A stretch of DNA of 64,000 bases, taken from contig JAHHGX010000020.1 of NCBI GenBank assembly GCA_019359675.1, positions 310,001 through 374,000 of the forward strand. Reading direction: 5' to 3'. Every line of letters starts with the position of its first letter. The first letter of the stretch is position 1. This document shows positions 1 through 64,000 of this stretch, one piece after another. Under the pieces are notes generated by a model, which was given only the letters and a program-made list of their open reading frames with translations, had not been told where the DNA came from and searched no databases. Source of the DNA: Calothrix sp. FI2-JRJ7. Its GTDB lineage: Bacteria > Cyanobacteriota > Cyanobacteriia > Cyanobacteriales > Nostocaceae. The translations under genes and the position numbers were made by a program.

Positions 1-1
1 C

Positions 2-2644
2 GAACTTGCAGCAGCATCGAGTCATAATGGAAACCGAGATATAACTCAACTTACTGACGAGCAAAATTATCTTGTTGAAAAACTCGACTCTTTTCTACAC
101 GACCCTTTTTTCCGTGAATATTGGTTAAAAGATGATGGTATTATTCATCGTCTCATCACTCATACATTAGGATATAAGGATAAAGTCGAAATTATCGAAG
201 AAAGACAAGGATTTTCGATAGAAGACTTACCCCTTGATATCCTTAACTGGCAAAAGTCAGCGGCAAAAACCCAAGAGTTTTATACTTTTCTGATTAGTAA
301 TGAAAGTTTTCAAAAAACTACAGTTGAGTGGTTGAACGAACATCTTAACGAAGCTATCAAACAAGTACTTAGCTTAGGTCGGGAAGACTTGCAGCGATTA
401 ATGCGTGAAGTGCGTGAAACTTTAGCGGAGCAGGGTGTCGAGTTAGTTTTACTAATTGAAGATTTTGCGAAATTACAAGGTATTGACCGAGAGGTGTTAG
501 AAGCAGTATTAGCTCGACCACAGCAACCAGGAAGTAAACCTTTGTGTGCAATTCGTACTGCTTTAGCTTGTACTACAGGTTATTTCCAAAGTTTAATCGA
601 TACCGTTCAACAGCGTATTACCTTTAGTGTCAACCTCGATATTGGTACAGTTGATAATCAATCTTTAATTACCCCAGATGATATTCAAGAGTTTGTGTCT
701 AGATACCTAAATACGGTTCGTTTAGAAAATCAGGTTATCTCCGACTGGGCAAAAAACAACCAAGAAGAGGATTCTCAACAAGAATCTATCGTCAGTGCGT
801 GTAACGATTGCGAACATCGTGAAGCTTGTCATGCAGGTTTTGGGAATGTTAACGACATGGGATTATATCCGTTCACACCCAAAGCTTTAGAACAAATGTG
901 GAATCGTGTCAATACAGGTAACTTTAACCCCCGCATTCTCATTAAAGATGTACTAAAGTATACTTTAGAAAATGGATTCAATGATATTAAGAAAGGTAAT
1001 TTCCCATCTGTGACTTTGCGAGAGCATTTTGGTAAGGTGCGTTTGAATACTATGCTCCAAACAGATATTAGAACAAAAGACCCTTACAATACTGAGCGAC
1101 GTGCAATACTTATAGACTTATGGACTGACAGTAATGAGCTTTGTGACCTACCTGCTTCTGTTCATACTGCTTTTAGTCTACCAACTCTCGGCGCCAAAAT
1201 TCAGCAAACCGAAAATAAACGTACCATTCCAAACCCTCAAAATAATCTTCCCACACCACGCACGGGTGAAGGTGGAGGAAGTTATATAACCGAACCAAAA
1301 TCAGTTGATAAAGAACCAGAAATTCCAGAAACGTTACAAGAAAAGCTAAAAATTCTGGATAACTGGAACAACGAATCAATATTACCTCAAGACATAGCAC
1401 AAAATATACGCACGTTTCTTTTTCCTGCAATAGTTGAAAAAATCCAGTTGGATAATGAACTTTTACTAGAAAATTTTTTTGCTAGTAACACAAGTAAGTA
1501 TTTTAAACAGAAAAATATTTACTTCCATAGTCCGAGGTTTACAAGAGAAAAAGTTTTTGGTGTAAAGTTATTATTACCTCTTAACCCTAATGATAAGAAC
1601 GAGTTTCTTGAAACTGCTGTAGCATTCCAAGGAATTTTACTATATAGTCACCACAAAAACTGGAAGTTTCCGAACGGTGACCGTTATTTACTAACCTATA
1701 GCAAGCTTCTAGAAAAATGGAGTCAGTATGTATTGAAAGCAATTCGTCTTTATCCTAGAGAATCTGGAGAAATTTGGAATCCAGTTCCAGCAGCAGTAGA
1801 ACTGTTAGCGATTGCTGCAACAATGGGAGGACACTCGACTAATTCTCTAGAAAACTTAATTAATGCGTTATTTTTAGATTTAGATAGAAACGATACAGGT
1901 CGTAGTGAGAGTTGGGAAAATCTTTTAAAATCTTTGAAAAAACACCGTGATGAGTTACTAGAAATTGTTCAAACTCGAATTGCTTGTACTAAAGGTAGTT
2001 CAAGAGATTTTCAAATTATTGATTCCATACAAATTATTGACCATTTAGAAAAAATCAGAAAATCCTGGCAACCTCAGTGTGAGATTCCAGAAGATGTTAG
2101 TGGTAAATTTTCAGAAATTTATAATGCTCGTAAAGATGTAGATGAACTGCTTGAAAAAAGTATTGAAGAAGAATATCAACGTCAATTTGAAATTTACCAA
2201 TTGTTAATATCAGAGTTGGGGGAAAATTTCAATAAGAAAGAAGTGATTGATACTGTAAGTTCTGCTTTAGAAAATGCACAAATTGCAGGAGTATTACGTG
2301 GTGTTAAAAACATTGATGACATTAAAAAAGTTATCGAACAATTCCGTCGTACTGCAATTACTAAGTATCAAGAAAATATGAGACGTATCCAAGCAGAGAA
2401 AGAAGCGGAAAATGGGAGAGGTAAAACTCTTGTTTATTTGAGTGAAGATTTTCAAAAGGTAATTAGTGATTCTAAAGATTTTTTGAATCAGACACATAGA
2501 TTTATTGGAGCTTCGACTTTAGAAGCAAAAAATCAAATTGGTGATTTAGGACAATTAGGACAAGGTTCAGTAAATTCTTGTCATCAAGGAATAAAAGATG
2601 ATTTGGCTAAACTCAAAAATTTATTGAATGAAATTAAAGGATAA
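2..2644 (+). CDS. dpdH: DpdH-like ATPase, 5' end outside window (partial)
   Basis: The frame is open from base 2, so the gene begins upstream and the TTG at 332 is not its start. About 880 residues are visible. A run reading VELVLLIEDFA near visible residue 146 looks like a Walker B strand of a STAND/AAA-type ATPase, whose P-loop would lie upstream. A CNDCEHREACHAGF cluster near residue 266 looks like a metal site. A low-complexity Pro/Gly/Glu linker lies near residues 415-430, and the rest is helical. The context is an ATPase, a small protein, a helicase, a PLD nuclease and a DpdD-like protein, which matches the H-I-J-K order of Dpd clusters. Those clusters insert 7-deazaguanine derivatives in DNA and restrict unmodified DNA. 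The DpdH name rests on motif memory and gene order, without a search. Confidence 0.65.
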   Translation, partial: ELAAASSHNGNRDITQLTDEQNYLVEKLDSFLHDPFFREYWLKDDGIIHRLITHTLGYKDKVEIIEERQGFSIEDLPLDILNWQKSAAKTQEFYTFLISNESFQKTTVEWLNEHLNEAIKQVLSLGREDLQRLMREVRETLAEQGVELVLLIEDFAKLQGIDREVLEAVLARPQQPGSKPLCAIRTALACTTGYFQSLIDTVQQRITFSVNLDIGTVDNQSLITPDDIQEFVSRYLNTVRLENQVISDWAKNNQEEDSQQESIVSACNDCEHREACHAGFGNVNDMGLYPFTPKALEQMWNRVNTGNFNPRILIKDVLKYTLENGFNDIKKGNFPSVTLREHFGKVRLNTMLQTDIRTKDPYNTERRAILIDLWTDSNELCDLPASVHTAFSLPTLGAKIQQTENKRTIPNPQNNLPTPRTGEGGGSYITEPKSVDKEPEIPETLQEKLKILDNWNNESILPQDIAQNIRTFLFPAIVEKIQLDNELLLENFFASNTSKYFKQKNIYFHSPRFTREKVFGVKLLLPLNPNDKNEFLETAVAFQGILLYSHHKNWKFPNGDRYLLTYSKLLEKWSQYVLKAIRLYPRESGEIWNPVPAAVELLAIAATMGGHSTNSLENLINALFLDLDRNDTGRSESWENLLKSLKKHRDELLEIVQTRIACTKGSSRDFQIIDSIQIIDHLEKIRKSWQPQCEIPEDVSGKFSEIYNARKDVDELLEKSIEEEYQRQFEIYQLLISELGENFNKKEVIDTVSSALENAQIAGVLRGVKNIDDIKKVIEQFRRTAITKYQENMRRIQAEKEAENGRGKTLVYLSEDFQKVISDSKDFLNQTHRFIGASTLEAKNQIGDLGQLGQGSVNSCHQGIKDDLAKLKNLLNEIKG

Positions 2645-2649
2645 ATGTA

Positions 2650-3354
2650 ATGCTCATTAGTAAATCTCAAGAATTGATTGATTTATGCCAGCAGAAAGAA
2701 ACTCAGCAAAGAATTGCCGATAATCTTCAAGCATTCCAATCGAGGCAAAAGCACATAAATGATGCTTTAACCATGATTGAACCAATTGTTGAAGCTGTAC
2801 GTGCGTTTCGGCAACGAGAGCTAACAAATTTTGACGTAGTTCCAAAAGTTGACTCTCTAGTATCTATTATTGCTGAAGCTGAAGAAAAATTTCGGCAAAA
2901 TCCTGAGTGGATTATTGAAAATAATAATTTTAAAGCAAACAGTTTTATCTCAAGCATAAGAGGTCTAAAAAATACAATAGAACAGCAATTAAGTCAAGCA
3001 TGGAATATTTATATTAAGCAAACAATGCCCAGTACAAATAATGATATGCTGAATGTGTTATCTAAAGTAGAAGCTTTTAAAGATACGGTTCAAGAAATAC
3101 GTATTTTAGATAAGGAAATAAAAGATATTAATTTTCCTAAAAATAATGTAGAATTTGAAAAATATGAACGTAAGATAGAACTATTAAAGTTATGCTGGAA
3201 TAGTTTAAATTCAGATGAAGTACCAGATACTGTATTACGACTACTTAAAGATGCTGCAAATCAAGGCGCCTCTTTAAGTCTTTTAACTCCAGAAGTCCAA
3301 GATTGGATTAATAAACATAATATCTCAGATTCATTAAAAATTCGCTTAATTTAA
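2650..3354 (+). CDS. dpdI: DpdI-like protein
   Basis: This 234-residue, Glu/Lys/Gln-rich, mostly helical and probably coiled-coil protein starts 5 bp after the preceding stop, behind an AAAGGA ribosome site, so it is co-transcribed and probably translationally coupled. I see no catalytic motif. The name DpdI is inferred from position, between a DpdH-like ATPase and a DpdJ-like helicase, and from size. It could act as an adaptor between these two, but nothing in the sequence shows that. Confidence 0.5.
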   Translation: MLISKSQELIDLCQQKETQQRIADNLQAFQSRQKHINDALTMIEPIVEAVRAFRQRELTNFDVVPKVDSLVSIIAEAEEKFRQNPEWIIENNNFKANSFISSIRGLKNTIEQQLSQAWNIYIKQTMPSTNNDMLNVLSKVEAFKDTVQEIRILDKEIKDINFPKNNVEFEKYERKIELLKLCWNSLNSDEVPDTVLRLLKDAANQGASLSLLTPEVQDWINKHNISDSLKIRLI

Positions 3355-3359
3355 ATATA

Positions 3360-3391
3360 CATATTCTTCGCTTCGCGACTAATGACAATAC
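3360..3391. repeat. Dispersed repeat copy between dpdI and dpdJ
   Basis: Read on the minus strand this stretch has TATTGTCATTAGTCGCG followed by AAGCGAAGAAT. It is the same element seen at 9.6-9.8 kb and 19.95-20.03 kb. It separates two genes that would otherwise be closely packed. Confidence 0.6.
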
Positions 3392-3406
3392 TCGTTTTTG
3401 CGTTAT

Positions 3407-5569
3407 ATGGTTATTGATTGGGATAAGTTAATTAGGGAATTTCTTGATACCTTAGAGCGCAAAGAGGTGCAACTTCTCTCGTGGGGTATTGTTGATGGTG
3501 GGTTTTCTGAAGAGGAAATAGAAGAACTAGCACAAGATTTCTTTGATAATAATGATATTGATGAGGATGCTTGGGATTTAGTTGAGTTAATGCTCGAACG
3601 GCGCCTTATATTCGATTTTAACATCAGAGGTCGGCGCCTATACCGCAGTCGCATGGCTGAGGCTGTAAGGTTATTCGCGCGTCTTCGTCAGCTTTTCCCT
3701 AGCAATAATTGGCAAACTGCCCCTACAATGGTTGCTGACTATCGTTTGCAAATTACCCCTAGAGTTTATCCTAGAAGACATATTACGTTACAAACTGTAA
3801 TTGAGAATTTACAGAATGACAAAGTATTAACTCCCATACGGCAACAAGCAATTACAGCTATTCTTGATTTACCTGAGAAGGATAATCAAATTTTATTGGC
3901 TGATTTTCAATTACGCGCGACGAGTAGAATGTTGCGCGATTTGAATAGTACAAAAAGTCGGGGGATGATTGTTTGTGCGGGAACGGGGACAGGGAAGACT
4001 TTAGCTTTTTACTTGCCTGCATTGGCACATATTGCTGGTTTTCTTAAAAAAGATGAGTATTGGAGTAAGGGTTTAGCGATTTATCCTCGTAATGAACTGC
4101 TCAAAGACCAATTTTCGGAAACTTACCAACAAGCACGGCGCCTTGATAGTGTTTTAGGTAATAACAAGCGTAAAATTATTATCGGCGCCTTTTTTGGTCT
4201 CACTCCCCGAAGCGCAACATTAGAAGACGTAGATGAAAAATGGGATTCTGAAAGCGGTGGTTATACCTGTCCTTATTTACGATGTCCTGAATGTGATGGT
4301 ACTTTATCTTGGCAACGTGCTGATTTGGAGGCAAAAAGAGAGAAGCTTACTTGTTTAAACCGAGATTGCCGTAATGTTATTGATGAGTCGGAAGTAATTC
4401 TCACGCGCGATAGAATGGCGAAAACTCCCCCTGACCTGGTTTTTACTACGACGGAAATGTTAAATCGGTCGATGGGTGATTCTAAATATGGTCATGTGTT
4501 TGGAATTAGGGCGCCTTTAACTCCTCAAATAATATTACTCGATGAGGTGCATACTTACACGGGAATACATGGCGCCCAAGTTGCTTATTTATTGCGACGT
4601 TGGCAACACATCATTCAAAATAAAGTTCAATATACTGGACTTTCGGCAACATTAGAAAGTGCAGCAGAATTTTTTAGCCAACTTACTGGTTTAAATTTAG
4701 GTCGGGTTGAAGAAATATATCCTGGTGATGACTTAATTGCTGAAGGGATGGAATATCAACTTGTTCTCAGAGGCGACCCTGTATCAGGTACTACTTTATT
4801 ATCAAGTAGTATATTAACAGCAGTATTATTAAGACGTGTACTAGACCCTAATGTTGAACCTCTTAGCAAAGACTTTTATGGTTCACGTGTTTTTGCTTTT
4901 ACTGATGACTTAGATGTTACAAATCGTTTGTTTCATAACTTATTAGATACTGAAGCACAAAATAGTTGGGGGCGCCAAATTAGAGGAAGATTACCTTTAG
5001 CAGCTTTACGCGCGCATAGTGCATCTAATAGTATAGAGCGTTTAGTTTCTGGTCAATCTTGGTTTATGTGCCAAGAAATTGGTCATCGCTTAGAAGTTCC
5101 ATTAAGTATTGGACGTACAAGCTCTCAAGATACAGGAGTAGCTTTAGATGCAGATATCATTGTTGCTACCGCATCGTTAGAAGTGGGATTTAATGACCCA
5201 GATGTTGGAGGTGTTATTCAACATAAAGCACCGCGCGATATGGCTTCTTTTCTTCAGCGAAAAGGACGTGCAGGACGAAAAAGAACGATGCGACCTTGGA
5301 CTGTAGTAGTACTTTCTGACTATGGACGCGACCGCATAGCTTATCAAAATTACGATATGCTATTTAGTCCAATTTTAGAAAAACGCTTTCTACCAATTGC
5401 CAACCGTTATGTAATTAGAATTCAAGCTGTTTATGCTTTTATGGATTGGGTTGCTATGAAGCTAGTTAATACAAATAGAGGCAGTGTTTGGAACGACTTT
5501 GCATCACCAGCATTATACGATAACAAGCGTCAACAGTTAGAAATAAATATTATCAAGAATGTCCTTTAA
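3407..5569 (+). CDS. dpdJ: DpdJ-like superfamily 2 DEAD/DEAH helicase, probably C-terminally truncated
   Basis: The ATG at 3407 (MVIDWDKLIREF) is preferred over the in-frame TTG nine bases upstream. The protein has an N-terminal helical domain, a P-loop (AGTGTGKT, about residue 193), a Cys4 zinc-ribbon insertion (CPYLRCPEC then CLNRDC, about 285-330), motif II LLDEVH (about 378), motif III LSAT, and motif VI QRKGRAGR (about 618). Such proteins use ATP to translocate on or remodel nucleic acid. In Dpd loci the helicase belongs to the restriction half. The ORF stops about 90 residues after motif VI, and from memory DpdJ proteins are much longer. The stop lies where the next reading frame (the PLD protein) is already open, which suggests a deletion or frameshift. 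The alternative is a DISARM-type or other defence helicase. Confidence 0.65.
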   Translation: MVIDWDKLIREFLDTLERKEVQLLSWGIVDGGFSEEEIEELAQDFFDNNDIDEDAWDLVELMLERRLIFDFNIRGRRLYRSRMAEAVRLFARLRQLFPSNNWQTAPTMVADYRLQITPRVYPRRHITLQTVIENLQNDKVLTPIRQQAITAILDLPEKDNQILLADFQLRATSRMLRDLNSTKSRGMIVCAGTGTGKTLAFYLPALAHIAGFLKKDEYWSKGLAIYPRNELLKDQFSETYQQARRLDSVLGNNKRKIIIGAFFGLTPRSATLEDVDEKWDSESGGYTCPYLRCPECDGTLSWQRADLEAKREKLTCLNRDCRNVIDESEVILTRDRMAKTPPDLVFTTTEMLNRSMGDSKYGHVFGIRAPLTPQIILLDEVHTYTGIHGAQVAYLLRRWQHIIQNKVQYTGLSATLESAAEFFSQLTGLNLGRVEEIYPGDDLIAEGMEYQLVLRGDPVSGTTLLSSSILTAVLLRRVLDPNVEPLSKDFYGSRVFAFTDDLDVTNRLFHNLLDTEAQNSWGRQIRGRLPLAALRAHSASNSIERLVSGQSWFMCQEIGHRLEVPLSIGRTSSQDTGVALDADIIVATASLEVGFNDPDVGGVIQHKAPRDMASFLQRKGRAGRKRTMRPWTVVVLSDYGRDRIAYQNYDMLFSPILEKRFLPIANRYVIRIQAVYAFMDWVAMKLVNTNRGSVWNDFASPALYDNKRQQLEINIIKNVL

Positions 5570-5589
5570 GTTCTCGTCAAGTTCCTAAC

Positions 5590-6048
5590 TTGCTGCAAGC
5601 TATATTCGTTGCAGAACTTCTTACTTCTAGTAAATGTATATGGCTTGTTTCACCGTGGATATCTGATATCCAAGTTATAGATAATACTAGTAATTCATTT
5701 ATGTGCTTAGAACCGTCTTGGAGTCGTTCGCGTATTTTACTTTCTCAAATTCTTAGTACCCTGACTCAACGAGGAACCATAGTACATGTTGCAACTCGTC
5801 CAGATAAACACAACCGCAGTTTTATAGAAGCACTTCTTCTCAAAACTGATGGTGTTAATTGTCATGTCCATAGTACTGATGAACTTCATTCTAAGGGTAT
5901 TTTAGGAGACGGGTATTATTTAGCTGGTTCTATGAATTTTACTTATAACGGTATAACTGTAAACGAGGAAGCGTTAACTTATGATACATCACCAGAAGTA
6001 ATTGCCGAACAACAGTTGATTTTTGGCAGTCGTTGGGGAGTTGTGTAG
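5590..6048 (+). CDS. dpdK: DpdK-like phospholipase D-family nuclease, start lost or truncated
   Basis: A 152-residue protein with one PLD catalytic motif: HSKGILGD matches HxKxxxxD and is followed by GSMNFTYNG. The conserved-looking N-terminal segment LLQAIFVAELL then WLVSPWISD precedes it. One HKD motif per chain implies a dimeric nuclease. The frame is open back to 5524 and still reads sensibly there (RQVPNLLQA), but it holds no ATG or GTG. The first candidate is TTG at 5590, without a ribosome site. The original start was therefore probably removed in the event that ended the helicase frame at 5569. Expression could depend on frameshifting or reinitiation, or the gene may be silent. Confidence 0.6.
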   Translation: MLQAIFVAELLTSSKCIWLVSPWISDIQVIDNTSNSFMCLEPSWSRSRILLSQILSTLTQRGTIVHVATRPDKHNRSFIEALLLKTDGVNCHVHSTDELHSKGILGDGYYLAGSMNFTYNGITVNEEALTYDTSPEVIAEQQLIFGSRWGVV

Positions 6049-6060
6049 GATAAAACAGTG

Positions 6061-8313
6061 ATGAATAAAAGCAATGCTAGTACTCTTCGTTTTCTGGAAC
6101 AGTTTTTCGGCGCCAGTAATAAATTTGATTTAGACAAAATTAAGCGTACCGAAGGAAAAAGCGCGAAAATTCGTCCTTGGGTAGAGTTGTTGACCCAGAG
6201 TACACCTCAACCTACCATCCTTCCATGCTGGCGCCCAATAAACAATCAGGTAGATTGGTATGGCATTGCTTTTTCACCAAAACAGTTACGTCGTTTAAGC
6301 GAAGAATTAATGGCATTTGTGGGGCCAACGTATTCAACGTATCGGGGACAAACTGCACAACTAAATTTACAAGACCCTATAGAAGCGGCAATCAATCAAT
6401 TTACACAAGGTAATGCAATAAAATTTAACGGAGATTCCTCTCAAATTTGGCAAGCACTTGAACGGATGCGCCAAGTAAGCGCGCGCTGTGTCAAACATAA
6501 TAGAGAAATTCCCCGTCCAACAGGTAGAGTACTGCGGGATTTTTATATGGCGCTACAAGCAGGCGCCCGCAGTTGTGCAGAACAAGAACTACAGTACCTC
6601 GCTAACCAACACCGCTTAGATGCACTCAATCTTTTATTTTTGCGTGTGCAACTTTTAGCAGAGTTAGAACAATGGAATGAATTACTCACGCTTCCAGAAC
6701 TTAGCAACCTTTTGCAAGTCAAAAGACCGTTTGCCGTTACAATCGCATTATTAAAAGCAGTATACCAAGTTGAACTTCTGCACTTTGAAGAAAAAAACAC
6801 TCCTAGTAGCGCAATAGCTTATTTTAAAGAATTTGTTTTTCCCCGATATCAAAATCTTTTTGCTGCCCGTGCAGGTAGTAAAGTTCCAGAAGTATTAAAG
6901 TTATTTATGCTGCTAGCTGTAAGCGTAGAACCAAAAAAACCAGCTTTACGTGATGAGCTACTAGCAATTGAGACAGCAGAACACCGTAACTACTTAGAAA
7001 GACTAGCTCAATCTTTACCTGATATTACACCTTGTAATGAAGAAGACCCTTTACAACAAGCCGAAAAATTAGCGTCTGAAGCAGATTTTGACCAATTATT
7101 TTTAGTGTTGCGCGATGTTCCACTATCACAGCGTAAAGTTAGCTTACTGTTTCAAGGCGCCTACGAGTTACAAACATTAGAAGCAGAAAAAACCGCATTA
7201 CAAGCTTTTGATGAGCTTACGATTGAAGAACAAACAGCTTTTTTGAAGTTACGTTGGAACCAAGATTGCCTAAACCGATGGCGAGGGAGTACCGAAGAGG
7301 TAACAAATACTCAATTAGCCGAAACAATTCCAGCAAGCTGGTTAGAATGGTTATCACAACTAGATAAACAGCCAACTTGGGAGCGTGCGCTATTTACTGC
7401 ACGTCAGGGTTCTAGCGAATGGGATGTTACAAGTTTACTCGTACAACCAAATGCTGTATACGAATTTGAGGAATTACTAAGCACAGTTGGCTCGAAAGCT
7501 GAATCTGTTCTACACAATGCAATTCCTTATTTATTGGGATTTTTCCAAAAGGATCAGTTATTTCCTCGTAGTGAATTTTTTAACCTTTATCAATTGTTGT
7601 TAGAAATATTAGTTATAAGTACCGAAGGTGGAGATGCCGATTTAGTATTGTTTAACGATTTAGTAATTGCACTGTTAAATCTTGGTTTGGATGCTAAAAA
7701 GTATACAGATATAATCAACTGTGCTTTAGACCTTTGGAAGCGCTATGAATCTCCGAAAAAAGTTGATTGGGCATTAGATTTACTCGATATACTAGTATTA
7801 AATTCTAGTCAAAATATGAGCGTGCGCGAGCAAACTTTATTTACTGTAGCCGAAAGCTTACGAAATTTTGCAGGACGCATCGACGAAGAACAATGGGGAA
7901 TTTTGCGCTCTTTAGTTAAGGACTTAAAGTTTGAAGAAGCATTTTCATGGTTATTTGATAAACAAATTGTAGAGCAAGAAAGTGAAGTAGATATTTTTCA
8001 AAAGCTCAATGGTAAATCAGTACTCATTTATACTCTTACTGAAACCGCAGCGTTAAGAGTCAAAAGCATTTTAGAAGCAGCTTCTAAAGTAAAAGTTAAT
8101 ATTAGTCATGATAAAGGTGGTACTGATAGACTCGGACAGTGGGTTAAAAACTCTGACATTGTTTTAATGGTGACAGCTAGCGCAAAACATGCAGCAACTA
8201 ATTTTATTGAAGCAAATCGTCCACCACATCTGGCGCCGATTCTTTTAGTTAATAGCAAAGGTAGTGCAAGTATGCTGCGAATAATTAAAAATTACTTAAC
8301 AAAAATTGGCTAA
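6061..8313 (+). CDS. dpdD: DpdD-like protein with C-terminal DUF2325-like domain
   Basis: A protein of about 750 residues starting 12 bp after dpdK. An AGGA lies upstream of a GTG-ATG pair, and ATG at 6061 is taken as the start. The N-terminus (RFLEQFFGASN) and the overall size fit my memory of DpdD. The centre is helical and repeat-like. The last 100 residues (about 648-750) form an alpha/beta unit: VLIYTLTETAALRVKSIL, then an isolated DIVLMVTASAKHA and PILLVNSKGSASMLR. This resembles the Rossmann-like DUF2325 fold. Residue conservation is unbroken, so this end of the cluster looks intact. No catalytic chemistry can be assigned. It is the last gene of the plus-strand cluster. Confidence 0.6.
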   Translation: MNKSNASTLRFLEQFFGASNKFDLDKIKRTEGKSAKIRPWVELLTQSTPQPTILPCWRPINNQVDWYGIAFSPKQLRRLSEELMAFVGPTYSTYRGQTAQLNLQDPIEAAINQFTQGNAIKFNGDSSQIWQALERMRQVSARCVKHNREIPRPTGRVLRDFYMALQAGARSCAEQELQYLANQHRLDALNLLFLRVQLLAELEQWNELLTLPELSNLLQVKRPFAVTIALLKAVYQVELLHFEEKNTPSSAIAYFKEFVFPRYQNLFAARAGSKVPEVLKLFMLLAVSVEPKKPALRDELLAIETAEHRNYLERLAQSLPDITPCNEEDPLQQAEKLASEADFDQLFLVLRDVPLSQRKVSLLFQGAYELQTLEAEKTALQAFDELTIEEQTAFLKLRWNQDCLNRWRGSTEEVTNTQLAETIPASWLEWLSQLDKQPTWERALFTARQGSSEWDVTSLLVQPNAVYEFEELLSTVGSKAESVLHNAIPYLLGFFQKDQLFPRSEFFNLYQLLLEILVISTEGGDADLVLFNDLVIALLNLGLDAKKYTDIINCALDLWKRYESPKKVDWALDLLDILVLNSSQNMSVREQTLFTVAESLRNFAGRIDEEQWGILRSLVKDLKFEEAFSWLFDKQIVEQESEVDIFQKLNGKSVLIYTLTETAALRVKSILEAASKVKVNISHDKGGTDRLGQWVKNSDIVLMVTASAKHAATNFIEANRPPHLAPILLVNSKGSASMLRIIKNYLTKIG

Positions 8314-8424: not shown

Positions 8425-8429
8425 CTACT

Positions 8430-30943: not shown

Positions 30944-31729
30944 ATGTTTGCACTGTCTCGTCAACTTGTAGGAACATCACTTGCAACTTTATTATGTGTC
31001 ATTGGAGTTATATCACTTCAATATCCACGCATGAATAAAGTGCTTACGACAAAGCAGGGGTTGTCAAAAGAAGCTTTAGAACGTGACGTACTAGTCGAAA
31101 AAGCACGTTTAAACCTGCTGGAAAAAATACCTGCGTTTGGCTACGATAACCTACTAGCAAACTGGGTTTATCTAAGCTTTCTACAATACTTTGGTGACGA
31201 TGAAGTTCGTGCAAAAACAGGTTACGCGCTCAGTCCTGAATATTTTGAAATCATTCTCAAACACGACCCACGTTTTCGCTTGGCATATTTAGGACTTTCT
31301 ACAAGCACATCTATGTACGCCGCAATGCCCGAACGTTCGGTTAAAATTACAGAAAAAGGTTTAAAACATCTCACTCCTTGGGCGCCTTCTGACTCATATT
31401 ATGTATGGCGATACAAAGGAACAGACGAACTATTATTTTTAGGTAATTCCCAAGCAGCCAGAAAATCATTTCAGTCAGCAGCAGACTGGGCAAGCAAACA
31501 TACAGACGAAGACAGCAAACTATCAGCCAGCATCTCCCAAGGAACAGCAAACTTCCTCGCGCGCAACCCCAACAGCAAACGCGCACAAATTTCAGCTTGG
31601 GGAATGGTACTACAAAATCAAATCGATAAAGAAACAGAGAAACGCGCGATTCGTGCTATAGAAGCTTTAGGCGGTCAAGTTGTCAGCACTCCTCAAGGTA
31701 ATCAAATCAAATTTCCTCGAAACGACTAA
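30944..31729 (+). CDS. Membrane-anchored helical-repeat protein
   Basis: ATG at 30944 is chosen over the TTG 12 bases upstream. About 261 residues: an N-terminal membrane anchor (LVGTSLATLLCVIGVISLQYP), then a helical domain with the pattern of degenerate TPR helices (LLANWVYLSFLQYFGDDEVRAKTGYALSPEYFEIILKHDPRF and SQAARKSFQSAADWASKH, only excerpted here in parts). It resembles conserved cyanobacterial membrane proteins of unknown role. No catalytic motif. Confidence 0.65.
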   Translation: MFALSRQLVGTSLATLLCVIGVISLQYPRMNKVLTTKQGLSKEALERDVLVEKARLNLLEKIPAFGYDNLLANWVYLSFLQYFGDDEVRAKTGYALSPEYFEIILKHDPRFRLAYLGLSTSTSMYAAMPERSVKITEKGLKHLTPWAPSDSYYVWRYKGTDELLFLGNSQAARKSFQSAADWASKHTDEDSKLSASISQGTANFLARNPNSKRAQISAWGMVLQNQIDKETEKRAIRAIEALGGQVVSTPQGNQIKFPRND

Positions 31730-31959
31730 TATCAACTTGTGCATGAGATTACATAGGTTTAGGAAAGCGCACTTTTGACTCCAAGTACCGACTATATAAT
31801 TACCGGGGATGCGTCGTAGGCACATACCCCTGAGCGGTTACGCCAAAACATATGTAAATAATTAATAATACTTCTTAAATTTGACAGAAGTAGAACTTAG
31901 CATTAATTAGGGATCTATAAGTTTAATGCCTAAGTAACTTTCGCAAATAGAAACCAAAT

Positions 31960-34900
31960 ATGAATATTACTATTGCAGGTTACAATCTCATCGAACTCCT
32001 TTATGACGGTACTACTACCTGTGTGTATCGGGCTTTACGAGAATCAGACCAAACATCGGTAATTATTAAAACTTTGAAATCTGAGTATCCAAGCATAGAA
32101 CAAGTATCTAGATTACGACACGAGTATAAAATACTTCAAACTTTAGAAATAGAAGGAATTGTGAAACCTCTATCTTTGGATAGTTATCAAAGCGGTCTGT
32201 CACTAATTTTGTCAGGCTTTGAAGGAGAAACTCTAAAAAACTTTTTGACTAAGAAAAATTTAGAATTAAACATTTTTTTACATATTGCTATTCAATTAGC
32301 TTCTACCCTTGCTCAGTTACATCAAGCCAATATTATTCACAAAGATATCAAACCTCAAAATATTTTAATTAATCCAAAAACAGCCCAAGTAAAAATTATT
32401 GATTTTAGTATTGCATCATGCCTATCTCAAGAGAACTCAAATCCCAGTAATCCTAACTTACTAGAAGGCACCCTTGCCTATATGTCTCCAGAACAAACAG
32501 GGAGGATGAACCGCTCAATTGATTACCGAAGTGATTTTTACTCTTTAGGTGTTACTTTCTATGAAATTTTAACGGGACAACTACCTTTTCAATCCACTGA
32601 CTCGTTAGAATTAGTTCATTGCCACATTGCAAAAACACCAGTATCTCCTAAGGAAATTAACTCAAATCTTCCTGCGGTAGTTTCTGATATTGTGATGAAA
32701 TTGTTAGCTAAAACTGCTGAGGAGAGATATCAAAATGCTTTGGGGTTTAAAGCAGATTTAGAAGAATGCTTACAACAACTACAAACAACTGGAAAAATTG
32801 AAGATTTCAGCATCGGGCAGCTTGATTTATATAGCCAATTTGTTATTTCACAAAAACTTTATGGTCGCGAGAAAGAAGTTATTATTCTCATGAATGCCTT
32901 TGAGAGAGTTAGTCTTGGGGCAACTGAGATGATGTTAATAAGTGGGTACTCTGGTATAGGAAAATCCTGCTTAGTCAATGAAGTTCATAAACCCATAGTA
33001 CGTCAACGGGGCTATTTTATTTCGGGTAAATTCGACCAATTTAAACGCAATATCCCTTATGCGTCTTTAATTCAAGCTTTTCAAGAATTAATCCGGCAGT
33101 TATTAACAGAAAGTAGTCAGCAAATAGCAATTTGGCAAGCAAAGCTTTTAGCAGCTTTGGGTAACAATGCTCAAGTTATTACTGATGTCATTCCTGAAGT
33201 CGAACGAATTATTGGACCTCAACCAGATGTTCCGCAATTAAGTCCTACTGAATTACAAAACCGATTTTATCGACTGTTTCAAAAATTTATTCATATATTT
33301 TGTAAACCCGAACATCCGTTAGTGCTGTTCTTGGACGACTTGCAGTGGGCAGATTCAGCTTCATTAAAGTTGATTCATTGGCTTGCTACTGACCCAGATA
33401 GTCAATATTTATTACTGATTGGTACATATCGAGATAACGAAGTACATACAACTCATCCGTTGATTTTGGTTTTAGAAGAAATTCAAAAATCTGGTGCAGT
33501 TGTCAATAATATTGTACTTCAACCTTTGCGGATTTCTCATGTCAATCAATTAGTGAGTGATACCCTCCACACTAACTTGGAAAATTCAAAATCATTAGCT
33601 TATTTAGTATACAATAAAACTCAGGGTAATCCTTTCTGCTTAACCCAGCTACTTAAATCACTTTATCAAGATAACTTATTGTCATTTAATTTCAGTGAGT
33701 GTTGCTGGCAGTGGGACATTCATCGTCTAGAAAATATTGATATCACTGATAATGTTATTGAATTAATGGTTAGCCAGATTCAAAGGTTGTTGCCGGCTAC
33801 ACAGAATGTTTTAAAGTTAGCTGCTTGTATTGGCGACAAATTTTCTTTAGAAGTTTTGGCAACCGTTAATAAAACAAATCAGTCAGAAACAGCCATAGAT
33901 TTATGGGAAGCTCTGCAAGCAGGTTTGATATTGCCCTTAAACCATTCCTATAAAATCCCCCTTTTACTTGATCAAAAAGGAATAAATAATGGGGATTACC
34001 AAGCAGAAGCAATATTAAATCATACCTATCAAACAATCACATATAAGTTCTTACATGACCGAGTGCAGCAAGCAGCCTATTCTCTAATTCCTGATGAGCA
34101 GAAGAAAAAAACACACCTGAAAATTGGTCAATTACTACTGCAAAATGCAACGTCAGAAGAACGCAAAGAAAACATATTTGCACTAGTTAATCAACTCAAT
34201 TACGGTACTGAACTACTCGTATATGAGCCAGAAAAATATGAACTAGCCCAACTTAATCTCTTAGCAGGGCAAAAAGCGAAAGCAGCGACAGCGTATGACT
34301 CAGCTGTTCGTTATTTCAACGTAGGTTTGAGATTGTTACCAGCCAACAGTTGGTATCAGCAATATGAACTGGCATTAGCTCTACATCAGGAAGCAGCAGA
34401 AGCAGCATTTCTGAGTGGTGATTTTGAGCAAATGGAGCAACTGATTAAGGTAGTTCTGCAACAAGCAAAATCGCAACTAGACCAAGTGAAAGTGTATGAG
34501 TTGCGAATCAAAAGCTGTGAAGCACAAAGAAAACTTCTTGAAGCGGTAAAGCTAGGTTTACAAGTTCTAGAAATACTGGGAGTAACACTCACTGAATCAC
34601 CAACTTCTTTAGATATCCAAAAAGCTGTTGAGGAAACAACAGCTAATTTAGCCGAGAAAGGAATAGAAAATTTAATTAATCTACCGTCAATGATAGATGT
34701 AGAGAAACTAGCAGCTTTTCGGCTTATAGTAAGTTTAGTTCCTGCTGCCTATCAATCTGCACCTGCATTATTTATCTTGATGGCTTGTCAACAAGTAAAT
34801 TTATCAATTCAATATGGAATTACTCCTTTGTCTGTTAGCGGCTTTGCTGATTATGGAATTATTTTTAGCGGTCTTTTACAAGATATAGAAGCTGCTTATA

Positions 34901-37900
34901 AATTTGGGCAAGTGGCTTTACATCTATTAGAACAGTTAGATACTCATGAGGTTAGAAGCCAAACCTTATTTAAAGTTTCGACGTTCATCCTGCATTGGAA
35001 ACATCATGTAAAGGAGACGTTACCACTTTTAGAAGATGCTTATTATAATGGTTTAGAATATGGAGACTTAATACATAGTGGATATGCTGCAAGTAATAAG
35101 TGCCAATATTCTTACTGGAGTGGTTCAGAGTTAAAAAGCCTAGAACAGGAAATGGCCAGATATAGTAAAGCAATTGCTCAAATTAATCAAGAAACAGCTT
35201 TAAAGTGGCATCAGATATTTCATCAGGCAGTTTTGAATTTAATAGGAGCGTCTGAAAATCCTTGTCGTTTAGTTGGCGAAGCTTATGATGAAGAGGAATT
35301 TTTACCACTTCATATTGAATTCAATGAGCGAACAGTAATTCATTATGTATTCTTGAACAAATTAATCCTGTGCTACATGTTTGGTGAATTTTCTCAAGCT
35401 GTGGAAAATGCTACCAAAGCCGAACAGTATTTAGATGGGGTAATTGGGTGGTTAATTGTACCGTTGTTTCATTTTTACGATTCTTTAGCACAACTAGCAA
35501 TATATTCATCACTGCCACAGTTACAACAACAAGACCTTTTAAATCGAGTAGTTAATAATCAAGAAAAAATGCAAAAATGGGCGCATTATGCCCCAATGAA
35601 TCATCTGCACAAATTTTATTTAGTAGAGGCAGAACGGCATCGTGTCTTAGATGAAAAAGTAGAGGCAGTTGAGATGTACGATCGCGCAATCGCACTTGCC
35701 AAAGACAACGATTATATCAACGAAAAAGCCCTTGCTCACGAACTCGCTGCTAAATTTTATCTGTCATGGGGTAGAGAAACGATTGCCCGCACTTACATGA
35801 CTAATGCTTACCATGCCTATAGCAGTTGGGGAGCTATCGCTAAAGTCAAAGATTTAGAAACACGCTATCCCCAATTAATTATGATATCGCCAAATGCACA
35901 AAAGCTAGAAACAAATTACCAAGAACTTAATCAGACAAATTTCACGAGAATTAGCAGAACTCACAGTCTCGACTTGATGACTGTGATGAAGGCTTCTCAA
36001 GCTCTTTCAGGTGAAATTGTTTTAAGCAAGTTATTGGCTAATTTGATGCGAATTTTAATTGAAAATGCAGGTGCAGAAAAGGGATTTTTAATTTTAGAAA
36101 CAGCAGGAAACTTAGAGATAGAAGCTTCAGGAAGTGTAGATAAAGATGAAATAAATGTCGAGCAATCGATACCTGTGGAAAGCAGTCAACAGCTACCGAT
36201 ATCCATCATTAACTATGTGCAGAGAACACAGAAAGACGTAGTTATTAATGATGCCACTAGCGAAGCTGTATTTAATCTGGATAATTATATCATCACCCAA
36301 AAACCAAAATCTATTTTATGTACTCCAATTATTCATCAAAGTAAACTCATTGGTATTCTTTACTTAGAAAATAATGTAATTACTAAAGCATTTACGCCAG
36401 AGAGGTTAGAAATTTTACAACTTTTATCCTCGCAAGCAGCAATTTCAATTGAAAATGCACGTCTTTATAACGACTTAGAGGAATATAATCGCACACTGGA
36501 AGTCAGAGTAAAAGAGCGAACTCTGGAATTAGAAGCTAAAAATTTGCAACTGCAACAGGAAATTCGTGAACGCCAAAGAGCAGAAGAAGCCGCAGCCGCA
36601 GCCAACCGCGCCAAAAGCGAGTTTCTAGCTAGTATGAGCCATGAACTCCGCACGCCGCTCAATGGGATTTTAGGCTATGCTCAAATTTTTAAGAAAAATC
36701 AAAATTTAACAGTCCAGCAAAAGAATGGTATAAATATCATTCATCAATGCGGTGAACATCTACTAACGCTAATCAACGATATTTTAGACATCTCTAAAAT
36801 TGAAGCTCGGAAACTGGAACTTTATCCCACAGAATTTTATTTTCCGGATTTTCTTGAAAGTATTGTGCAAATCTGCCGTATACGTAGTGAACAAAAAGGA
36901 ATTTTGTTAACTTATCAGCAACTTTCTCCTCTGCCTAGAGTTGTTAAGGCTGATGAAAAACGTTTGCGCCAGGTTTTAATTAATCTACTTAGTAATGCCG
37001 TCAAATTTACAGAACAAGGTACTGTAAATTTTCAGGTGGGATATCATGAGGGAAAATTAAGGTTTCAAGTCGAGGATACAGGAATCGGCATTGCACAAGA
37101 ACAATTAGAAGAAATATTCTTGCCGTTTAAGCAAGTAGGAGAAGATAACCGCAAGACTGAAGGTACAGGATTAGGATTGGCAATTAGCCGTCAATTAGTC
37201 GAGATGATGGGTGGTGAAATTAAAGTAAAAAGTACCTTAGGTAAAGGTAGCGTTTTCTGGATAGATTTAGATTTACATGAAGTTTTATCACAAATTAGTG
37301 TTAAGAAATTTGACGAGCGTAACATTATTGGTTTTGTTGGTGATAAAAAGAAAATTTTAGTGGTAGATGATAAATGGGAAAATCGTTCTGTTTTAGTACA
37401 TTTACTAGAGCCTTTAGGGTTTGAAGTTATAGAAGCAACAGATGGCTTAGACTGTCTTAACAAAGCAACAGAGTTTAAGCCAGATGTGATTTTTATGGAC
37501 TTAGTTATGAGTGTGATGGATGGTTTTGAAGCCACTCGGCGCCTGAGAATGTTACCAGACCTTAAAAAAGCAGTAGTAATTGCCATATCAGCCAGCGTTT
37601 TTGATTTTGATAAAAAACAGAGTCGAGAAGTAGGTTGCAATGATTTTCTTCCTAAGCCATTCCGAGTTGCGGAACTTTTAGAAAAATTAAGAGTTCACTT
37701 GGAATTTGAATGGGTTTATGAAGAAATAAAAAATGATATAAAATACCCAAAAGATGTTAAATTAAAATTACAAATTCCAAATCAAGATTTGATTCCTCCA
37801 CCAGCAGAGGAAATGGCAATTTTACTCGATTTGGCAATCAGGGGTAATCTAAGGAGTATTGCACAAAGAACAGCTTTCTTAGAGGAGTTGGATGAAAAAT

Positions 37901-38001
37901 GGTCTCCATTTGCGACTCATTTACGCCAACTGGCTAAAGAATTTAAATGCAAACAAATCGTAACTTTTATTAAAAAATATTTACAGTCAACATCAAGTTA
38001 A
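31960..38001 (+). CDS. Trifunctional Ser/Thr kinase - AAA ATPase - GAF - histidine kinase - receiver protein
   Basis: 2013 residues. 1-270: Hanks-type kinase with HKDIKPQN (about 126), DFS in place of DFG (about 147) and YMSPEQTGRMNR. 295-620: AAA_16/STAND ATPase with GYSGIGKS (P-loop, about 330) and VLFLDDLQWAD (Walker B). 700-1320: TPR-like helices. 1350-1500: GAF domain. 1510-1560: coiled coil. About 1560: HisKA SMSHELRTPL with phospho-His. 1670-1790: HATPase (NLLSNAVKF, DTGIGI, GTGLGLAIS). 1799-1915: receiver with ILVVDDKWENRS and IFMDL (phospho-Asp). Such giant kinases are typical of filamentous cyanobacteria. It contains one GGCGCC only, at its far 3' end, unlike its neighbours. Confidence 0.92.
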   Translation: MNITIAGYNLIELLYDGTTTCVYRALRESDQTSVIIKTLKSEYPSIEQVSRLRHEYKILQTLEIEGIVKPLSLDSYQSGLSLILSGFEGETLKNFLTKKNLELNIFLHIAIQLASTLAQLHQANIIHKDIKPQNILINPKTAQVKIIDFSIASCLSQENSNPSNPNLLEGTLAYMSPEQTGRMNRSIDYRSDFYSLGVTFYEILTGQLPFQSTDSLELVHCHIAKTPVSPKEINSNLPAVVSDIVMKLLAKTAEERYQNALGFKADLEECLQQLQTTGKIEDFSIGQLDLYSQFVISQKLYGREKEVIILMNAFERVSLGATEMMLISGYSGIGKSCLVNEVHKPIVRQRGYFISGKFDQFKRNIPYASLIQAFQELIRQLLTESSQQIAIWQAKLLAALGNNAQVITDVIPEVERIIGPQPDVPQLSPTELQNRFYRLFQKFIHIFCKPEHPLVLFLDDLQWADSASLKLIHWLATDPDSQYLLLIGTYRDNEVHTTHPLILVLEEIQKSGAVVNNIVLQPLRISHVNQLVSDTLHTNLENSKSLAYLVYNKTQGNPFCLTQLLKSLYQDNLLSFNFSECCWQWDIHRLENIDITDNVIELMVSQIQRLLPATQNVLKLAACIGDKFSLEVLATVNKTNQSETAIDLWEALQAGLILPLNHSYKIPLLLDQKGINNGDYQAEAILNHTYQTITYKFLHDRVQQAAYSLIPDEQKKKTHLKIGQLLLQNATSEERKENIFALVNQLNYGTELLVYEPEKYELAQLNLLAGQKAKAATAYDSAVRYFNVGLRLLPANSWYQQYELALALHQEAAEAAFLSGDFEQMEQLIKVVLQQAKSQLDQVKVYELRIKSCEAQRKLLEAVKLGLQVLEILGVTLTESPTSLDIQKAVEETTANLAEKGIENLINLPSMIDVEKLAAFRLIVSLVPAAYQSAPALFILMACQQVNLSIQYGITPLSVSGFADYGIIFSGLLQDIEAAYKFGQVALHLLEQLDTHEVRSQTLFKVSTFILHWKHHVKETLPLLEDAYYNGLEYGDLIHSGYAASNKCQYSYWSGSELKSLEQEMARYSKAIAQINQETALKWHQIFHQAVLNLIGASENPCRLVGEAYDEEEFLPLHIEFNERTVIHYVFLNKLILCYMFGEFSQAVENATKAEQYLDGVIGWLIVPLFHFYDSLAQLAIYSSLPQLQQQDLLNRVVNNQEKMQKWAHYAPMNHLHKFYLVEAERHRVLDEKVEAVEMYDRAIALAKDNDYINEKALAHELAAKFYLSWGRETIARTYMTNAYHAYSSWGAIAKVKDLETRYPQLIMISPNAQKLETNYQELNQTNFTRISRTHSLDLMTVMKASQALSGEIVLSKLLANLMRILIENAGAEKGFLILETAGNLEIEASGSVDKDEINVEQSIPVESSQQLPISIINYVQRTQKDVVINDATSEAVFNLDNYIITQKPKSILCTPIIHQSKLIGILYLENNVITKAFTPERLEILQLLSSQAAISIENARLYNDLEEYNRTLEVRVKERTLELEAKNLQLQQEIRERQRAEEAAAAANRAKSEFLASMSHELRTPLNGILGYAQIFKKNQNLTVQQKNGINIIHQCGEHLLTLINDILDISKIEARKLELYPTEFYFPDFLESIVQICRIRSEQKGILLTYQQLSPLPRVVKADEKRLRQVLINLLSNAVKFTEQGTVNFQVGYHEGKLRFQVEDTGIGIAQEQLEEIFLPFKQVGEDNRKTEGTGLGLAISRQLVEMMGGEIKVKSTLGKGSVFWIDLDLHEVLSQISVKKFDERNIIGFVGDKKKILVVDDKWENRSVLVHLLEPLGFEVIEATDGLDCLNKATEFKPDVIFMDLVMSVMDGFEATRRLRMLPDLKKAVVIAISASVFDFDKKQSREVGCNDFLPKPFRVAELLEKLRVHLEFEWVYEEIKNDIKYPKDVKLKLQIPNQDLIPPPAEEMAILLDLAIRGNLRSIAQRTAFLEELDEKWSPFATHLRQLAKEFKCKQIVTFIKKYLQSTSS

Positions 38002-46248: not shown

Positions 46249-46805
46249 TTAATCGCTTTCAAAATCTATCTCTAGTTGAGTTTCGGTTACTGAATCATCT
46301 TCTTCATCGGCTAATTCAATATTTGGCTCGTCCATTCTTTCTGAAAGATGTTCTGTAAATATTTGTATAAATCGCTCAAGTTCTGCTCGATTCGGAATTA
46401 CGCTTCTTTCTCCCCCATCTCCAAATAAAAAGAATTTTGTACTAGCTTGTGAGGCTTCAACTATTGTTAAATCCATTTCTTTTCTAAGAGCTATTTGAAC
46501 AGATAAACAATGAGAATTTCCCCTATTCATCAATTGTCCTCTACCTAACCAGTCAAAAAATTCTGATTGTGAAATTCTTATTTTTGAATTTATTGTAGAA
46601 AGAGGTATCACAGTCTGATTTTTTCCTAACTTATATATTGGCTGTTTAGGGTAAGGTTCATCTGAAAGCTTTATTTTTCCATCTTCAACCAAATAACCTA
46701 TTGCTATATCCGAACGTTCAGATGGGGTTTTGAAAGAAACTTTCCCAGCTTCCCAAATTAGATACGTTCCAAATGGAACACGTACTTCAGTAAAAATATC
46801 TTTTT
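46249..46805 (-). pseudogene. Remnant of a restriction-modification-associated gene
   Basis: The frame opens at 46802 right after a stop (KDIFTEVRVPFGTYLIWEAG) and runs to 46249. It has no convincing ATG; TTG 46692 is the first common start. The product is an alpha/beta protein with SERSDIAIGYLVEDGKI, KLGKNQTVIPLSTINSKIRI and an acidic tail. It abuts, in another frame, the first 50 codons of a C5 methyltransferase. The most economical reading is that a deletion joined the methyltransferase N-terminus to this gene. The family is not recognised; the function is likely linked to the methyltransferase. Confidence 0.5.
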
Positions 46806-46943
46806 ATGTGTTAAATGCGCGTTTGGATGTATATCACTTGCTGCAACTAGTTTAAAAAAACTTCTATCATGACTGGCTAACAACATTCCTTCAGTAAAAC
46901 CTCCGGCGCCTGCAAATAAATCTAAAAAAGTATATATACTCAT
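46758..46943 (-). pseudogene. N-terminal fragment of a DNA (cytosine-5) methyltransferase
   Basis: 61 codons: motif I IYTFLDLFAGAGGFTEG (AdoMet binding) and motif II-like LVAASDIHPNAHLTHKK are intact, then the frame leaves the family (IFLLKYVFH) and stops. The PCQ catalytic motif IV, the recognition domain and motifs VIII-X are missing. It is therefore a dead methyltransferase. One GGCGCC lies within it. Confidence 0.8.
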
Positions 46944-55851: not shown

Positions 55852-55881
55852 AACTTTAAATTAAATTACCTAGATATTTAG

Positions 55882-58156: not shown

Positions 58157-58172
58157 CACTGATGAGCAAAAG

Positions 58173-59309: not shown

Positions 59310-59335
59310 AGCTTTTTAAAGAGGGTATTGGGATA

Positions 59336-59368
59336 TGTTGGGTTCCGCTTGCGCTCCACCCAACCTAC
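59336..59368. repeat. GTTGGGTTCCGCTTGCGCTCCACCCAACC repeat
   Basis: A short imperfect hairpin (GTTGGGT ... ACCCAAC) between ndhD and cupB. It is the same form as the copy at 51452. Confidence 0.75.
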
Positions 59369-59372
59369 ATTA

Positions 59373-60848: not shown

Positions 60849-60875
60849 TTTTTAAGTTAAGAGTGAAAAGTTTTA

Positions 60876-61028
60876 GGGTGGGTGAAAGCTATTACAATCA
60901 TGCAATGTAACGCGAGATTAAAGTGCTTTCACCCACCATTAACCGTGTGGTACATAAAGTTTCTGGTGCGTAACGCCACAAGGAAACTTTGCGCGCGTTG
61001 TAGGATTGTTATGGCGTTACACACCCTA
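60876..61028. repeat. Two TGCGTGAAAGC/TGCGTAACGCC inverted repeats inside the ndhF-ndhD operon
   Basis: 60876-60937: GGTGGGTGAAAGC and GCTTTCACCCACC. 60965-61028: GGTGCGTAACGCC and GGCGTTACACACC, ending at the base before the ndhF stop codon. They separate ndhF from ndhD by 180 bp and could set differential expression within the operon. Confidence 0.85.
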
Positions 61029-62885: not shown

Positions 62886-63531
62886 TTAAACTTCCCGATT
62901 TGCCGTAATTTAAAAAAATTATTAACGATGAAACTAAGTTAACTAAAAGCTATGTCCTAAAATTGTGTTCAATATATAAATTGCACGGAATAGCTTTTTA
63001 TTACTTAGATTTTCTCGGAAATATGTCAAAAAGACTACTATGCTTCGCATAAATAAACATTATCTTTTCACGTCCAAGCCCCTACCTGCTAAGATTTTCT
63101 TTGTCTCAAAAATCCAGCTTATATGTTTTATAACAAAAACTTATATTTTGAGAAAAAATAAATGGTCAGCGCACGCTTGCAGCAGAACACTCGCAGAGAG
63201 GCGCCATATACGCTCTCGCTCGACTACTCCCTCACGGTAGATTTGTCACTGTCACGTTTATTTATAAACTAACAGTATAAAGAAATTATAAATCATAAGG
63301 CATGGAGAAGGAATCCGTAGTCTATGAGAACCGGAAATACACTGATATTAAGTTGGTTAAGTTTTTCAAAACCATTTTATTATAAAGTATTATAGTAATT
63401 TATCTTGCCAGGGGTGCCAACCTTTTCTATGCTTAAGAACGAGAGTGCTTTTTGAATTGGACTAAGATGAGCATCCCCGTCAAAAAATTCAGTAAGCAAA
63501 GTGTCGCGTAAATTTTTGTAGGAGTCTAGAA
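62886..63531. promoter_or_regulatory. Divergent promoter region between ndhF4 and ccmK2
   Basis: About 650 bp with no supported gene. One GGCGCC (63199) and a C/G-rich patch at 63165-63240 stand out from A/T-rich DNA. A long leader for the ccm operon is plausible. No LysR-type box could be identified with confidence. Confidence 0.4.
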
Positions 63532-63840
63532 GTGCCAATTGCAGTTGGAATGATTGAGACTAAGGGTTTTCCGGCAGTTGTAGAAGCTGCGGATGCGATG
63601 GTTAAGGCTGCACGTGTAACCTTAGTTGGATATGAAAAAATCGGTAGCGCTCGCGTTACCGTTATTGTCCGAGGTGACGTATCAGAAGTACAAGCTTCGG
63701 TAGCTGCTGGAATTGAAGCTGCGCGTCGTGTTAATGGTGGTGAAGTCGTATCCACACACATTATTGCACGTCCACATGAGAACCTAGAGTATGTACTACC
63801 AATTCGATATACCGAAGCGGTTGAACAATTCCGGACATAA
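63532..63840 (+). CDS. ccmK2: Carboxysome shell protein CcmK2
   Basis: GTG start, AGGAG 7 bases upstream. 102 residues, a single BMC domain: [45 protein letters not shown] (pore loop Lys-Ile-Gly-Ser), and the C-terminus [20 protein letters not shown]. The length and tail match CcmK2, not the longer CcmK1. Hexamers tile the facets of the beta-carboxysome; the central pore admits bicarbonate. It is the first gene of what should be a ccmK-L-M-N operon continuing past the window. Confidence 0.93.
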
Positions 63841-64000
63841 TTTGTAGTACTGGTGTATTACAGCATTTAAGTACTGTAATACGGCAACAGGAGATGCTTG
63901 GGTTTTAGATTTTGGATTGAGTCTGTAGCTGTTTCTAAGTACAAACTAAGTTTGGTAAATTTTGATACAAGTACAATTAAAATTCAGAATTTGAAATCCG
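63841..64000. other. Intergenic region at window end
   Basis: 160 bp without a gene start in the window; the next ccm gene presumably lies beyond. Confidence 0.4.

Follow-up and report, generated by a model that had tools for sequence, protein, structure and literature searches.

GGCGCC in place of HIP1 throughout the genus of Calothrix sp. FI2-JRJ7, with a conserved methyltransferase probably of GRCGYC type

The window analysed here, a stretch of 64,000 bases from Calothrix sp. FI2-JRJ7 with a G+C content of 38.5%, carries 101 dispersed copies of GGCGCC (1..64000, no strand assigned), which we annotate as an alternate highly iterated palindrome on the basis of counts, Markov expectation and placement relative to ORFs and strands. 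Base composition predicts 3.26 copies and a first-order Markov model 5.2. Thus, the original prediction of about 100 sites where about three are expected was accurate, and its roughly 30-fold excess holds against base composition, whereas the Markov model puts the excess at about 19-fold for the window and at 20-fold for 394 kb of the contig. Ranked by observed over expected copies, GGCGCC comes first among the 64 six-base palindromes, and no other 6-mer of the window reaches its z-like score. The HIP1 word (GCGATCGC) occurs once, as had been noticed. Likewise as described, the sites lie in genes on both strands and between genes: according to longest-ORF calls of at least 100 aa, 45 are located in plus-strand ORFs, 44 in minus-strand ORFs and 12 outside ORFs. 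Over the 394 kb, ORFs contain 1.8 sites per kb and the remaining DNA 1.3. An even spacing of the sites was considered and rejected, the spacing being near random (CV 1.09 and 0.86).

The longest stretch of the window free of GGCGCC (31381..37538, plus strand, 6,157 bases between sites) falls almost wholly in the ORF 31960-38001, whose 2013-aa product matches kinase, AAA_16, GAF, HisKA, HATPase and response-regulator domains in Pfam. Its counterpart in strain PCC 7716 aligns in full and also lacks GGCGCC, while only 352 bases align in PCC 7103, with one GGCGCC. The window furthermore contains the start of an m5C DNA methyltransferase gene, a 61-aa remnant on the minus strand (46758..46943; PF00145, 25.1 bits, cut-off 22); this is a different gene from the enzyme proposed below to mark GGCGCC.

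The whole genome (8.66 Mb, 91 contigs) contains 14,889 GGCGCC and 31 HIP1 sites, so that neither a GGCGCC count near expectation nor a high HIP1 count beyond the window was found. The reversed word CCGCGG occurs eight times, although this word is itself avoided.

The distribution was determined in 60 genomes, comprising seven members of the genus, 29 other members of the family and 24 further genomes of the order. The genus is represented by the genome of the window, Dulcicalothrix desertica PCC 7102 (G004), Calothrix PCC 7103 (G005), PCC 7716 (G002), NIES-4105 (G003), C42_A2020_038 (G001) and HK-06 (G006), the last six being identified through the coordinates of their methyltransferase gene. 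GGCGCC is enriched in all seven species and in none of the 53 other relatives: each genus member has 7,475-20,380 copies, each of the 29 other family members at most 530, and the 24 genomes outside the family at most 2,493. This maximum (G043, about 400 per Mb) was considered as an independent case and rejected, since it is about the number expected at 49% G+C (one 3.5-kb locus). HIP1 behaves inversely, with 31-163 copies in all seven genus members and 1,117-7,721 in the rest of the family apart from one genome of the 29 (G028, 535 copies). The suggestion that GGCGCC seems to replace HIP1 therefore applies to the genus as a whole. For four species, each sampled over 394-400 kb, the observed to expected ratio of GGCGCC is 17-22, while GACGTC, another GRCGYC site, is at 0.03-0.09 of expectation. 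In a survey of 386 genomes of the phylum, a table read by eye in which the genome of the window was the sole genus member drawn, no other genome combined at least 1,000 GGCGCC per Mb with more than five times its CCGCGG count; CCGCGG was high too in the other GGCGCC-dense genomes. The simplest reading of the mirror-image distribution of the two words is a single swap before the radiation of the genus.

The replacement of HIP1 by GGCGCC is not a new observation, having been in print for PCC 7103 of the same genus (Elhai 2015, PMC4390886). According to that study, PCC 7103 carries two GRCGYC methyltransferases, an unusual m4C CGATCG enzyme instead of the standard m5C one and a GATC nuclease gene, with GATC very low; HIP1 is linked to DNA methylation, and alternate HIPs are argued to be sporadic and without persistence. 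The density in the seven genus genomes (1,150-1,720 per Mb, from counts and rounded sizes) lies within the ~1,000-2,000 per Mb given there for an alternate HIP; the extreme excess of a GC-rich palindrome is likewise present in the four species sampled for it, and HIP1 is low in all seven genomes. Our case agrees with the published one in the word itself, the near absence of HIP1, the presence of a methyltransferase of GRCGYC type, the strong depletion of GATC and the depletion of GACGTC and its kin. It differs in that the trait is seen in seven species and is thus not sporadic, contrary to that argument, and in that site conservation and the decay spectrum were measured. With HIP1 of other cyanobacteria GGCGCC shares the character of a GC-rich palindrome of high density tied to methylation; the word and the methyltransferase are different, and HIP1 is almost absent from the genus. 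No further paper on the GGCGCC case was recognised in a literature search judged by titles and opening abstracts. The enrichment is therefore real and strong, described before in a close relative and now a conserved trait of the genus; its genus-wide extent, the inheritance of the enzyme, the missing matches to the HindVP nuclease and to the probable CGATCG enzyme, the conservation of the sites, their decay spectrum and their net loss are new.

The nine m5C methyltransferase matches in the genome (METHYLTRANSFERASES) fall in eight genes or parts of genes, of which three are fragments. One gene (L010, 317 aa; PF00145, 219 bits; TIGR00675) has an orthologue in all seven genus members with 81-100% identity. 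In a tree of 32 rows the orthologues form one clade with a support of 100/99, their dN/dS is 0.05-0.18, and the L010-type enzyme is, judging by this phylogeny, inherited vertically in the genus. It was assigned to the GRCGYC type from homology and gene neighbourhood: relatives of L010 adjoin RE_HindVP genes in G033, G026 and G054, and a HindVP-like stretch was detected at 59 of the 74 named loci outside the genus that bear an L010-type enzyme. In that locus search half of the ten nuclease queries were wrongly cut pieces of 17-68 aa, and the hits came from the five full-length queries; several loci were truncated at contig ends. We take HindVP to be specific for GRCGYC, and Eco29kI for CCGCGG. 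The original prediction had envisaged a methyltransferase that recognises GGCGCC; the genus does have a conserved candidate, which however probably recognises GRCGYC rather than GGCGCC alone.

RE_HindVP was matched in none of the seven genus genomes, nor in the 14 control genomes of the same search; the model is nevertheless able to detect the family, since it matched 26 of 292 genomes in another scan. The genus thus resembles a HindVP-type GRCGYC restriction-modification system in its methyltransferase, whose homologues lie next to RE_HindVP in relatives, but differs from it in the missing nuclease match and in that GGCGCC is enriched, not avoided. The family of the probable CGATCG methyltransferase was matched at E<=1e-60 in 51 of the 53 relatives outside the genus and in none of the seven genus genomes. 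Its identity is deduced from the distribution of the family and from the report of Elhai (2015) that PCC 7103 is without the standard m5C enzyme. HIP1 is not strictly tied to this enzyme: G026 lacks a match yet retains HIP1, and HIP1 is low in G028, G053 and G055 in spite of a match.

The methyltransferase alone does not suffice, because relatives carrying it have few GGCGCC sites. Seven relatives outside the genus with a 62-69% identical enzyme have 3-277 copies each, and the 74 loci outside the genus 0-10 per locus, compared with 16-41 at six genus loci. Even seven cyanobacterial loci with no HindVP stretch nearby (L086, L088, L089, L090, L096, L097 and L111; four of them from one close clade, and the nuclease search covering the HindVP type only) have 0-1 GGCGCC and 6-28 HIP1. 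The hallmark of the genus is an L010-type enzyme without a HindVP nuclease combined with no match to the CGATCG enzyme, and we infer that this combination caused the enrichment. A second methyltransferase copy (L009) groups with Rivularia/Richelia enzymes; since G001 and G004 have no high-identity match to its type, it is not needed for the trait. This sets the genus apart from the account of PCC 7103 in Elhai 2015, which stresses the second GRCGYC copy as a window of opportunity.

The sites are conserved between species. In BLAST blocks of 300 bases or more, with genes taken from uncurated longest-ORF calls, GGCGCC is intact at 502 of 626 aligned places in G005, 536 of 611 in G002 and 86 of 103 in G003 (86.8% identity), as well as at 24 of 29 in G004 and 12 of 21 in G001, the aligned overlap being small for G003 (58,852 columns) and G001 (10,047 columns). 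With codon position and neighbours matched, an intact fraction of 0.39-0.55 would be expected for G005 and G002 and of 0.15-0.39 for G003. Among all hexamers with enough aligned copies GGCGCC ranks 18th of 1,800 in the comparison with G005 and is the best kept in the other two (first of 1,802 for G002 and of 1,533 for G003). Its conservation exceeds the matched expectation in each of the three frames as well as in non-coding DNA. Where the amino acid is conserved in G003, 91% of GGC codons are retained within the motif vs 53% elsewhere, and 91% vs 56% of GCC codons, some of the control groups of this codon-level comparison being tiny. A better protection of isolated sites was considered and rejected, the nearest-neighbour effect being weak and non-monotonic (p=0.045).

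In a three-way comparison of 290,775 columns 125 sites were lost by a single base change and 31 through more than one base; 85 of the 125 were C3>T (or G4>A). At third codon positions the other transitions are rare in the motif: 1.3% vs 6.7% in control GCC codons for C6>T, 1.1% and 0.9% vs 6.0% of control G for G1>A and G2>A, and 1.9% vs 7.7% of control C for C5>T. C3>A/G was found in 2 of 519 cases vs 26 of 964 in controls, and other changes at G4 in 0 of 259 vs 77 of 1,419. C3>T, by contrast, reaches 7.1% vs 11% and G4>A 6.9% vs 8.7%. Synonymous transitions are thus 4- to 7-fold rarer in GGCGCC than in controls with the exception of C3>T, which is expected if the inner C is 5-methylcytosine; this signature indirectly suggests that the inner C is methylated. 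Against transversions the protection is weaker than against transitions: they occurred at C6 in 10 of 550 cases vs 52 of 1,177 in controls, and at G1 in 4 of 266, barely below the 1.9% of control G. The methylation bias originally proposed thus gains indirect support from the decay signature, from the conserved m5C methyltransferase of GRCGYC type, for which no HindVP nuclease was found, and from the unmatched probable CGATCG enzyme.

GGCGCC is present in one, two and three of the three species 85, 156 and 408 times, respectively. For comparison seven further hexamers were picked by hand, among them two GC palindromes; in all of these singletons outnumber pairs, so that of the eight only GGCGCC shows a pattern of net loss. 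Parsimony yields 18 one-base gains; since losses outnumber gains, the sites seem to be mostly inherited. With G003 as outgroup GGCGCC is also present for 21 of 27 pairs and 6 of 10 singletons, both small samples. The flux at control third positions is balanced (2,375 C>T vs 2,456 T>C), and the method is therefore not generally biased.

Based on the counts, the distribution, the gene matches and their lack, the conservation and the decay spectrum, we consider it probable, with some reservation, that GGCGCC is the alternate HIP of the genus, in which a GRCGYC-type orphan marker replaced HIP1 and the hexamer is held by selection. The common ancestor would have lost HIP1 and very probably also the standard CGATCG m5C methyltransferase, and a nuclease-less GRCGYC-type m5C methyltransferase may have become the new resident marker across the genome by methylating the inner cytosine (GG-5mC-GCC). 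Most sites would have been laid down before the four compared species split, after which site-specific purifying selection may have maintained the hexamer against slow erosion by deamination of 5mC to GGTGCC/GGCACC. The likeliest reason for such selection would be that the methylated palindrome is read by a protein, as has been supposed for HIP1.

Alternatively, the sites may be a functionless by-product of repair. In the model published by Elhai (2015, PMC4390886), GmeC-directed mismatch repair turns near-sites into GGCGCC until a density of about one per kb is reached. The inner-C methylation that it requires is supported by the C3>T signature, and losses in excess of gains would fit a ratchet halted at saturation. 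The third-codon variability bears on it in both directions. It rises to 0.29 (1,449 sites) at distances of more than 1 kb from GGCGCC, which speaks for the model, but stays at the background rate nearer by, with 0.20 at the 1-3 bases outside the motif and 0.18-0.20 out to 1 kb, and the rise is absent from sites with C in G000; a regional protection by mismatch repair was rejected for distances of up to 1 kb. Taking furthermore into account that the hexamer is kept in every frame and in non-coding DNA, that no nicking enzyme is known and that a window of opportunity opened by a second copy misfits a trait of all seven members, two of them without that copy, we regard this explanation as rather unlikely. 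The repair bias originally offered as the other option is not demonstrated, with gains fewer than losses, motif-adjacent bases unprotected and, as detailed below, no Vsr.

A role of GGCGCC as a self-recognition word for DNA uptake (DUS/USS-like) would fit its high density and its conservation both inside and outside coding DNA, but leaves the link to the methyltransferase and the missing CGATCG enzyme unexplained, and appears very improbable. Even less credible is an accumulation of GGCGCC through very-short-patch (Vsr) repair that acts on deaminated GG5mCGCC and over-corrects T:G to C:G. Apparent changes from GGTGCC to GGCGCC are indeed common, with 10 in 14 cases at third codon positions compared with 4 in 196 at GGTGC[AGT]. 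However, Vsr (PF03852) was matched in none of the 60 genomes, that of the window included, while 5 of 14 control genomes were matched; C3>T is the chief route of loss, and GGTGCC is not depleted (observed/expected 0.96-1.27 in four species). A fast creation from GGTGCC was rejected as well, parallel losses being the simplest explanation of the single-species sites shared with G003. Codon usage, G+C or protein composition can be dismissed as practically negligible causes: the Gly-Ala frame is indeed the commonest placement (273 of 686 sites in one stretch and 136 of 295 in another), but GGC-GCC encodes 409 of 784 Gly-Ala pairs in 574 kb of the genome (52% vs 2.2% expected), a 24-fold excess over codon usage with the dipeptide itself at 1.06, the sites occur in all frames and in non-coding DNA, and relatives' loci of like G+C (L083-L098) have 0-1 sites.

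Against the favoured reading, a selected alternate HIP marked by an orphan methyltransferase, stand the insufficiency of the methyltransferase alone, the loose relation between HIP1 and the probable CGATCG enzyme, the m4C CGATCG enzyme and the GATC nuclease that Elhai (2015) reports for PCC 7103, the depletion of GACGTC, the weaker protection from transversions, the near-random spacing and a conservation of isolated sites that is not clearly better. Its extension is more tentative: the genome word of a lineage may possibly be set by its resident orphan m5C methyltransferase, a GRCGYC enzyme having replaced the lost CGATCG one and rewritten the genome with about 15,000 methylated sites, held ever since by selection on the hexamer.

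The purpose of HIP1 has been debated for decades, and a whole genus with a swapped word and a visible change of methyltransferase among its relatives constitutes a natural experiment. Its genus-wide extent weakens the view of alternate HIPs as sporadic and non-persistent, and the decay spectrum offers genetic evidence for the methylated base, which is listed as unknown for this enzyme type (both according to Elhai 2015). A protection limited to the hexamer is not easily given by a purely neutral by-product. If the word of a lineage is indeed set by its resident methyltransferase, the identity of a HIP would be an exchangeable, functional epigenetic mark.

Besides GGCGCC, the palindrome CGCGCG is also over-represented in the genomes of the genus. 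It was counted 3,257-8,759 times per genome in seven of seven members. Outside the genus 18 genomes of the family and 16 of the order were searched, and the highest counts there were 505 and 1,311, respectively. The word was 5.0-8.5 times as frequent as expected in four species, and 574 kb of the window's own genome (stretches of contigs C20 and C79) contained the word at 227 places. According to the hexamer comparison between species CGCGCG is less conserved than GGCGCC.

The window also includes a 6.2-kb stretch without GGCGCC (31381-37538), which lies almost entirely within the gene for a hybrid kinase of 2013 amino acids; the aligned sequence of Calothrix PCC 7716 is likewise devoid of the word. 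In four species GATC has an observed/expected ratio of 0.12-0.22 (20 occurrences vs 147 expected at 1-64000 of the window) and GGCC one of 0.11-0.12, and CCATGG, GTGCAC, TGCGCA and TTCGAA show near-zero occurrence.

The reversed word CCGCGG is all but missing from the window's own genome, with eight occurrences in total. Its contig C61 carries a restriction-modification pair similar to Eco29kI (locus L013, 1462-3345; PF09517, 3.5e-60; PDB Eco29kI), the presence of which is consistent with this near absence. A fragment similar to the methyltransferase of the pair was detected in a further locus, L016. The truncated start of an m5C methyltransferase on the reverse strand of the window (46758-46943) is a leftover of a lost system.

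Genome G126 contained 9,489 GGCGCC and 2,450 CCGCGG, with 304-343 GGCGCC in three other members of its own genus; it may be a high-G+C assembly that was mislabelled or mixed.

Low HIP1 counts were also found outside the genus. In the family member G028 (535 in 10.7 Mb) no obvious substitute palindrome was detected in 60 kb (L277-L279). In G055, which belongs to a different family of the same order and has 673 HIP1 per genome, GCCGGC occurred 106 times vs 10.7 expected in 40 kb (L280 and L281). This word is an alternate HIP of the rCCGGy type, resembling that of Oscillatoria PCC 10802 as described in PMC4390886.
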